A stretch of 64,000 nt of DNA. Source: Sporanaerobium hydrogeniformans (lineage in GTDB: Bacteria; Bacillota; Clostridia; Lachnospirales; Cellulosilyticaceae). The stretch covers positions 186,001-250,000 of the forward strand of contig NZ_PEDL01000001.1 of NCBI RefSeq assembly GCF_002735925.1, read 5' to 3'. Below, piece after piece: positions 5,732 to 22,593 of this stretch. Position numbers and translations under genes: made by a program. Position 1 is the stretch's first letter; the number at the start of each line of letters is the position of its first letter. Below the pieces are notes generated by a model. That model ran no database searches and was not told where the DNA came from. It saw only the letters and a list, made by a program, of their open reading frames with translations.

Positions 5732-5953
5732 TTGTGTATAATTTGCAAGAAAGTATTAAAGGTTATTGGTTGGATATTAATAATAGGCTTTGTAAGTTTT
5801 AGTATGTATGATGGCTATATGTATAATACTGCATATAAATATGGTTCAGCTCCTTTTTATCTCTTTATTATTGTGCGATTTTTAGAATTTGTAGTACCTG
5901 GTATTCTATGTTTGTTAATTTCTCATTTTTTAAAATACAATAAGAAGAATTAA
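5732..5953 (+). CDS. Small two-helix membrane protein, unknown
   Basis: Seventy-three residues with two hydrophobic segments (about 7-24 and 42-64) and a lysine-rich tail (KYNKKN). I do not recognise a family. The start is TTG at 5732, supported by AGGAGAG at 5717-5723 with 8-nt spacing; the nearby ATG at 5724 is followed at once by a stop. A CICKK cysteine pair sits at the extreme N-terminus. It lies between the pflB terminator and the candidate structured RNA, whose promoter overlaps its 3' end. Confidence 0.5.
   Translation: MCIICKKVLKVIGWILIIGFVSFSMYDGYMYNTAYKYGSAPFYLFIIVRFLEFVVPGILCLLISHFLKYNKKN
5912..5941 (+). promoter_or_regulatory. Possible promoter of the structured RNA
   Basis: TTGTTA at 5912-5917, an 18-nt spacer and TACAAT at 5936-5941. 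It is embedded in the last codons of the small membrane protein gene and predicts a start near 5948. Confidence 0.4.
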
Positions 5954-6154
5954 TGTATTAAATCTTATATGCTGCACATACTACTAGTAGGTGGTTGGCA
6001 GAGCCAAAAGCAATTCTTTCTCCCAGGAAAGTTGCCTAGCTAATAAGATTCAGTTATTCACCTAGTTGTGCTTACAGAAAAATCTAATTAGCTAAGTAAA
6101 TAGTGCTATAACCGTAATAACTGCCAGCGTGGGGCCATGTGCCTCACGTTTTTT
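5948..6154 (+). ncRNA. Candidate structured RNA of about 200 nt, class unknown
   Basis: Non-coding stretch with several complementary segments. (a) 5995-6001 TTGGCAG pairs with 6121-6127 CTGCCAG as a closing stem. (b) A local hairpin lies at 6010-6035. (c) A 15-bp stem pairs CTAGCTAATAAGATT at 6036-6050 with 6081-6095. (d) The loop segment CAGTTATT (6051-6058) is fully complementary to AATAACTG (6116-6123), a pseudoknot-type contact that overlaps the 3' strand of the closing stem, so (a) and (d) compete over three bases. It ends in a terminator hairpin at 6128-6154. A plausible promoter precedes it. I could not match it to tmRNA, SRP RNA, RNase P or a known riboswitch; 6S-like RNA remains possible. 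Confidence 0.5.
6128..6154 (+). terminator. Terminator of the structured RNA
   Basis: Stem CGTGGGGC / GCCTCACG (8 bp, one G-U) with a 5-nt loop and six T, directly 3' of the paired elements described for the RNA. Confidence 0.75.
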
Positions 6155-6245
6155 ATTGTATTTTTTATACGTTCTATCAGGACACATACTCGTTTTGCTC
6201 AAGGTATCCATAAGTTTTATGAAGGCAAAATAGGACTTGGAACAT
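6155..6245 (+). other. Possible gene remnant
   Basis: One frame reads IRTHTRFAQGIHKFYEGK and GLGT before a stop at 6244-6246. The composition looks protein-like and a terminator follows immediately, but there is no start codon with a ribosome binding site and I recognise no family. It may be the tail of a deleted gene or chance. Confidence 0.2.
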
Positions 6246-6293
6246 AAAAAGACTCTTTGTAACTATTTAGAATAGGTGCAAAGAGTCTTTTTT
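6246..6293 (+). terminator. Rho-independent terminator
   Basis: Perfect 14-bp stem AAAAAGACTCTTTG / CAAAGAGTCTTTTT with an inner CTATT/AATAG stem in the loop and a T run. It isolates the downstream dut operon. Confidence 0.85.
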
Positions 6294-6449
6294 AGATGGT
6301 TGCTTGATGAATAGAAAAAGAATATAGTATGATAGAAGAAAAGGTATTTAATAATAAAGAGCTTTAGTTTCTCAATATAAAAAAGGATAGTAATAAGAGA
6401 TCAAGCAAGATGGTTTACTGAAGATTAAGGAAATAAAGGAGTAATAGAG

Positions 6450-6959
6450 ATGGACAAACAAATGATTTATTTTTCGAAATTAAAGGAGAATGCCATTATC
6501 CCAAGCAAACGAGATGAGGATGGTGCCTTTGACATATATGCATGCTTTGAGGAGGAATATCTCGTTCTAGAGCCACATACTACGGTAATGGTACCTACAG
6601 GAATTGCTTCTGCATTTTCGTCAGATTATGTAGCTATTTTAAAGGAGAGAGGTTCCACAGGAACCAAGGGGATTGGACAGCGTTCAGGTGTGATTGATTC
6701 GGGCTATAGAGGGGAGTGGCTGATGCCTATAACGAATCATAATGAAGTACCTCTTATTATAATGAAAAAAGAAAGTGTTTTGCCACAAAGCCTGAGTGAG
6801 GATTTAAGAAAGGCCATTATTTATCCCTATGAAAAAGCCCTTAGTCAATGTATTATGGTGGAAGTGCCTAAACTTCAAATTAATGAGATACCTTATGAAG
6901 AGCTGGTACAGTTTCAATCTCAAAGAGGTACTGGCCGCTTAGGTTCTTCCGGAAAATAG
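6450..6959 (+). CDS. dut: dUTP diphosphatase-like protein (trimeric dUTPase fold)
   Basis: 169 residues containing the dUTPase motifs in order: I DGAFDIYA, II ERGSTGTKGI, III GVIDSGYRGEW, IV around ALSQCIMVEV and V RGTGRLGSSGK at the C-terminus. The enzyme hydrolyses dUTP to dUMP and PPi, keeping uracil out of DNA. Motif V has leucine instead of the usual phenylalanine (RGxGxFGSTG), and about 30 extra residues lie between motifs III and IV, so a dCTP deaminase/dUTPase-like variant is possible. AAAGGAG precedes ATG 6450. A radical SAM gene follows 13 bp later, probably co-transcribed. Confidence 0.85.
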   Translation: MDKQMIYFSKLKENAIIPSKRDEDGAFDIYACFEEEYLVLEPHTTVMVPTGIASAFSSDYVAILKERGSTGTKGIGQRSGVIDSGYRGEWLMPITNHNEVPLIIMKKESVLPQSLSEDLRKAIIYPYEKALSQCIMVEVPKLQINEIPYEELVQFQSQRGTGRLGSSGK

Positions 6960-22314: not shown

Positions 22315-22593
22315 AAATTAATAGTTGAACAAATGCAATGAAAGAGAATGGCTTTTGCAAAATCACTATCAGAGAGTTAACGGTTGGTGCAAGTTATCAG
22401 TGAAGCAGTAAGCAAATCACTCTTGAGCAGAGCTTATGAAAGGTAAGACTAAGTAAGAAGTTTCCGGAGGCCCCGTTACAGGCAACAGTTTGATAGAACT
22501 GAGTGAGCGGACTTATAATAGGAGTGTTATAGGTCAAGATGGGTGGTAACGCGTGGAATATTCCTCGTCCCGTTAATGGGATGAGGATTTTTT
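22315..22593 (+). promoter_or_regulatory. T-box leader, probably isoleucine-responsive
   Basis: Contains the T-box sequence GGGTGGTAACGCG at 22541-22553 and a terminator stem CCTCGTCCC / GGGATGAGG (22563-22586) with a T run. The distal stem I is recognisable: AGAGAG at 22371 and GGTTGGTGCAAG at 22382. My fold pairs AAGAG (22342-22346) with CTCTT (22420-22424), GCTT-TGC with GCA-AAGC, and TCACT with AGTGA. This leaves AAATCA in the specifier loop, so the codon is most likely AUC (Ile, 22416-22418) followed by A. The UGGU of the T-box fits discriminator A73, as in tRNA-Ile, -Leu and -Val. Uncharged tRNA should promote readthrough. Confidence 0.88.

Follow-up and report, generated by a model that had tools for sequence, protein, structure and literature searches.

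The non-coding segment that lies upstream of a dUTPase-like gene in Sporanaerobium hydrogeniformans raises the question of whether it encodes a structured RNA and, if it does, of what kind. The initial annotation of the window (the whole stretch of 64,000 nucleotides that was analysed) described a candidate of no known class with a promoter, a long stem nested in a closing stem, a possible pseudoknot and a terminator, and offered a riboswitch, an independent sRNA and a divergent 6S RNA as possible identities. Its coordinates for the non-coding segment were correct.

When the genome was searched at the DNA level, a second copy of the segment (copy 2) was found 140 kb distant, at G000:C11 ~331,494-331,697, with 86% identity over 203 nt. 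Only these two copies were detected, one chromosomal and one within a prophage. Alignment of the two nucleotide sequences indicated that the homology begins and ends abruptly and delimits a unit of ~200 bases at window positions 5952-6157 (+ strand), outside which no convincing homology between the copies was found and the neighbours are unrelated. The alignment carries two single-base gaps, so that no reading frame is kept across the copies, and by this conservation test the unit is judged to be non-coding. We regard the RNA candidate as real enough to be worth keeping, though not as it had first been described. Its features are as follows, with positions given in the window.

5952-6157, + strand: entire repeat, candidate non-coding RNA (86% identity to copy 2, sharp boundaries).
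5952-5963, + strand: 5' block AATGTATTAAAT, the same in both copies; this arrangement occurs only at the two copies.
5972-6001, + strand: 5' hairpin, -10.8 kcal/mol, its 12 pairs interrupted by two bulges; the sole change between the copies lies in its loop.
5995-6001, + strand: 5' arm of the closing stem, pairing with 6121-6127; 7 pairs in each copy, one U-G becoming U-A.
6010-6035, + strand: second hairpin, 10 pairs and a C-rich loop, missed by the initial annotation; pairs kept in copy 2.
6036-6096, + strand: long hairpin with arms 6036-6050 and 6081-6095 (13 of 15 positions paired, 12 in copy 2); z -2.3.
6099-6120, + strand: linker AATAGTGCTATAACCGTAATAA, the same in both copies by their comparison and mostly unpaired with the closing stem formed.
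6121-6127, + strand: 3' arm of the closing stem, from the copy comparison.
6126-6157, + strand: intrinsic terminator with a 10-pair stem, loop CATGT and a U tract (site count, z score and changes that keep pairing).

The terminator is the strongest feature of the unit. It had been placed at 6128-6154 and proved to be strong, with one site seen at 6126-6157 against 0.1 expected and a hairpin z score of -3.6, an equally good fold being obtained in 2 of 1000 shuffles. It is intact in both copies, and the three changes between the copies that fall in its stem all retain pairing.

The closing stem, 5995-6001 with 6121-6127, is likewise present, one of its 7 pairs being G-U. The long stem, 6036-6050 with 6081-6095, exists as well, but of the 15 bp assigned to it 13 are standard pairs, positions 6036/6095 (C-A) and 6045/6086 (A-A) being mismatched, and in copy 2 one pair is broken by a C-A mismatch, which leaves 12. 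The stem nevertheless exceeds chance: a Watson-Crick helix as good, with one mismatch allowed, was found in 0.7% of dinucleotide shuffles, but a helix as good with G-U pairs allowed in 15%. The second hairpin retains every pair in copy 2, with one U-G changed to U-A, and by itself is not above chance, an equally good fold occurring in 87 of 1000 shuffles. The 5' hairpin (z -2.0; 41 of 1000 shuffles as good) and the closing stem are mutually exclusive, and both are kept in the two copies, without covariation; the stretch 5972-6001 may instead be promoter DNA. Against shuffles, the folding energy of the unit as a whole stands out only mildly: z is -2.1 for 5960-6157, and the two copies in full give -1.4 and -1.5. 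A helix between 5961-5968 and 6042-6050, predicted for copy 1 at minimum energy, is disrupted in copy 2 and was rejected.

An 8-nt contact between the long hairpin loop and the 3' region, 6051-6058 with 6116-6123, had been put forward as a pseudoknot. The two segments are exact complements, but as a pseudoknot the contact receives no support from the copy comparison: 6 of the 8 pairs are kept in copy 2 and two are lost, and one pair becomes G-U. Taken alone the 8-bp contact is near chance, a perfect helix of at least 8 bp occurring in 19% of shuffles; the sequence has three such helices against 0.2 expected. A second possible pseudoknot, UAGGUG at 5988-5993 with CACCUA at 6059-6064, is invariant in both copies, comprises only 6 bp and is unproven.

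Comparison of the two copies over 5972-6157 revealed 24 changes, 12 of which fall in the 30-nt apical loop of the long hairpin (6051-6080), a density of 12/30 positions against 12/156 elsewhere in the same interval (p 3e-5). This hypervariable loop includes the conserved words AGUURU and CACCUAG, and the arms of the long hairpin show one change in 31 positions. At paired sites, with only two sequences to compare, five one-sided changes keep pairing (three in the terminator stem, one in the second hairpin and one in the closing stem), one breaks a pair and none is two-sided. Since no pair is changed on both sides the fold is unproven, and the patterns of change support constraint only.

Copy 2 lies in the accessory ('moron') region of a prophage of ~50 kb, after the lysis genes. 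The prophage spans about 289.7-339.8 kb of G000:C11, and its gene content includes a serine recombinase, a repressor-like HTH protein, terminase, portal, sheath, tape measure and endolysin. Its integration site is the 3' end of the tmRNA gene; the tmRNA end CTCACCTCCATTGT is repeated at the far prophage boundary (L201:7409-7753 and L034:8364-8378), which gives an element length of about 50 kb. Beyond the endolysin gene come accessory genes and then the RNA unit, which lies ~8 kb inside the right end; next are a ParM-like gene and a phage gene of ATPase-like type. The ParM-like gene suggests a segregation function. The reading frame of the recombinase (L201:7633-9282, minus strand) shares about 120 bases with the predicted tmRNA gene, which is on the other strand.

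The view that the segment belongs to no known class was upheld. Rfam 15 was searched with the window at the gathering cut-off and with both copies also at a relaxed threshold (E up to 10); no family fits the unit at the cut-off, and nothing convincing was obtained for either copy at E up to 10. A weak match to TD-1 RNA (RF03155; 25.4 bits, E 0.04, over 6115-6296, cut-off 64.5) was rejected, as it is mostly outside the unit, is driven by two terminator hairpins and is absent in copy 2.

BLAST and a covariance model built from the two similar sequences found no relative in 24 family genomes, where the model gave matches at 18-27 bits of which the two best fall in coding sequence and are attributed to chance. 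Nor did these searches find a relative among the genomes sampled from the order (392), the class (391) and the phylum (398), the larger samples being filtered more strictly, and the order-level DNA search yielded short pieces only, judged to be chance. Phage and plasmid records, searched at the DNA level, yielded no relative. Exact-pattern scans of viral contigs gave matches that the covariance model did not support, and among the matches listed from a pattern scan of genome contigs none was supported by the model. In phages whose ATPase-like gene (Terrisporobacter phage TPDSL_ph2) or endolysin is related, the stretches checked had no such RNA, and a synteny check of the dut locus in relatives found no such RNA. 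The genus was represented by one genome in these searches; with a two-sequence model, stricter filters and a pattern scan limited to the matches listed, distant or very local relatives can be missed.

Among the identities first offered, the independent sRNA is the best; the unit is non-coding, terminator-ended and outside every Rfam 15 family. On balance we think it probable that 5952-6157 is a self-contained, lineage-restricted small RNA gene with a close paralogue in the prophage, its product probably acting in trans by base pairing. The unit would be transcribed and end at the Rho-independent terminator, and two or three hairpins are predicted in the RNA besides the terminator. Pairing with targets would be made through exposed conserved segments, for which the linker 6099-6120 (AATAGTGCTATAACCGTAATAA) is a candidate together with the CACCUAG word in the variable loop and the C-rich loop of the second hairpin, and the prophage copy may share targets with, or compete against, the chromosomal copy. 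No downstream gene is common to the copies, so a stand-alone role fits better than that of a leader. Counting against a small RNA gene are the number of sequences (two), the lack of two-sided changes at paired sites, the mild folding energy, the lack of a good promoter common to the copies and the C-A mismatch.

The closest known kind appears to be the prophage-carried regulatory RNA, a likeness of setting and not of sequence. Trans-acting small RNAs carried by prophages of enterobacteria include AgvB and AsxR, of 51-60 nt (PMC4104026), DicF (PMC5069750) and svsR (PMC12803456), and the RNAs related to AgvB have a conserved 3' part in common plus a variable segment (PMC4104026). As with these RNAs, a candidate small RNA gene is found here in a prophage accessory region. 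Unlike AgvB and AsxR, the unit would measure about 165-200 nt and have several hairpins, and unlike all four it has a related chromosomal copy and occurs in a different phylum. Most likely, then, the unit is of an ordinary kind, an orphan terminator-ended small RNA, and what is unusual is the pairing of a chromosomal with a prophage copy. Orphan sRNAs are common, and such a pair offers a ready test of phage-carried host-type RNAs beyond enterobacteria.

Analysis of the 5' side bears on where the transcript would begin. The promoter assigned to 5912-5941 could not be retained, promoter-like sites being at chance level (5 seen, 5.7 expected) and this one being absent from the second copy; no promoter-like site common to both copies was found. 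The block AATGTATTAAAT (5952-5963), in which there is no good sigma-70 match, presumably marks the unit boundary and may belong to a promoter or form the 5' end of a processed transcript. Small ORFs of 73 aa in the window (the ORF at 5732) and 69 aa in the prophage stop within about 3 bases of the start of each unit. This position and the lack of a common promoter-like site would suit a 3'-UTR module, in which the mRNA of the upstream small ORF ends with the unit, which serves termination and mRNA stability or is released by processing. However, the two ORFs look unrelated and neither matches a Pfam or PHROGs family, so it is uncertain whether either is a gene, and the conserved, variable and again conserved blocks of the 5' region could be the unit's own promoter, of another type. 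We hold the 3'-UTR origin to be unlikely, though with some chance of being right.

A little more doubtful is a bolder version of the small RNA gene, in which the prophage copy would be a phage-borne mimic or competitor of a clostridial host's regulatory RNA of the same family and the two would represent a new lineage-restricted structured class moving between chromosome and phage.

The unit could also be a DNA element, that is, a small mobile sequence or a phage regulatory one that contains a terminator by coincidence. Its sharp ends, its two copies, of which one is in a prophage, and the weak folding statistics would agree with this, but the genome holds only two copies and no terminal inverted repeats were seen on reading the ends. 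Moreover, the terminator changes retain G-U as well as G-C pairing, which is relevant only in RNA, and the 5' hairpin depends on G-U pairs, and on these grounds a DNA element seems distinctly improbable.

The riboswitch or attenuator, in which alternative folds ahead of the terminator would govern the downstream gene, draws on the competition between the 5' hairpin and the closing stem, both retained in the two copies, and on the overlap of the proposed loop contact with the closing stem. The terminator stem and the closing stem, however, have at most two end bases in common, so the folds do not clearly switch the terminator. There is no regulated downstream gene in common, dut following in the window while an unrelated 286-aa protein is encoded in the prophage, and a second hairpin (6246-6292) separates the terminator from dut; since the downstream genes differ and this hairpin intervenes, a riboswitch or leader is very unlikely. 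A divergent or second 6S RNA is scarcely credible: some Firmicutes have two 6S RNAs, but the length of about 165-200 nt is the sole likeness, the genome has a canonical 6S at another locus (63 bits, E 5.6e-12, above the cut-off), the RF00013 covariance model matches neither copy even at E up to 10, and the predicted fold consists of separate hairpins, unlike a single long hairpin interrupted by a central bubble. Neither the riboswitch nor the 6S reading should be carried forward, nor, for now, should the pseudoknot.

Some observations concern the neighbouring features. The hairpin at 6246-6292, between the RNA and dut, is a 22-nt inverted repeat, 91% complementary and flanked by A and T runs, and is probably a two-way terminator. 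The dUTPase-like gene dut (6450-6959) follows a formate-lyase-type gene in the window, while in several relatives a dUTPase-like gene is found directly after apparent anaerobic ribonucleotide reductase genes (nrdD/nrdG); the differing neighbours indicate a local rearrangement in this lineage. Farther along, a T-box leader (RF00230, 108 bits) at 22329-22575 is the sole Rfam match in the window above the cut-off.
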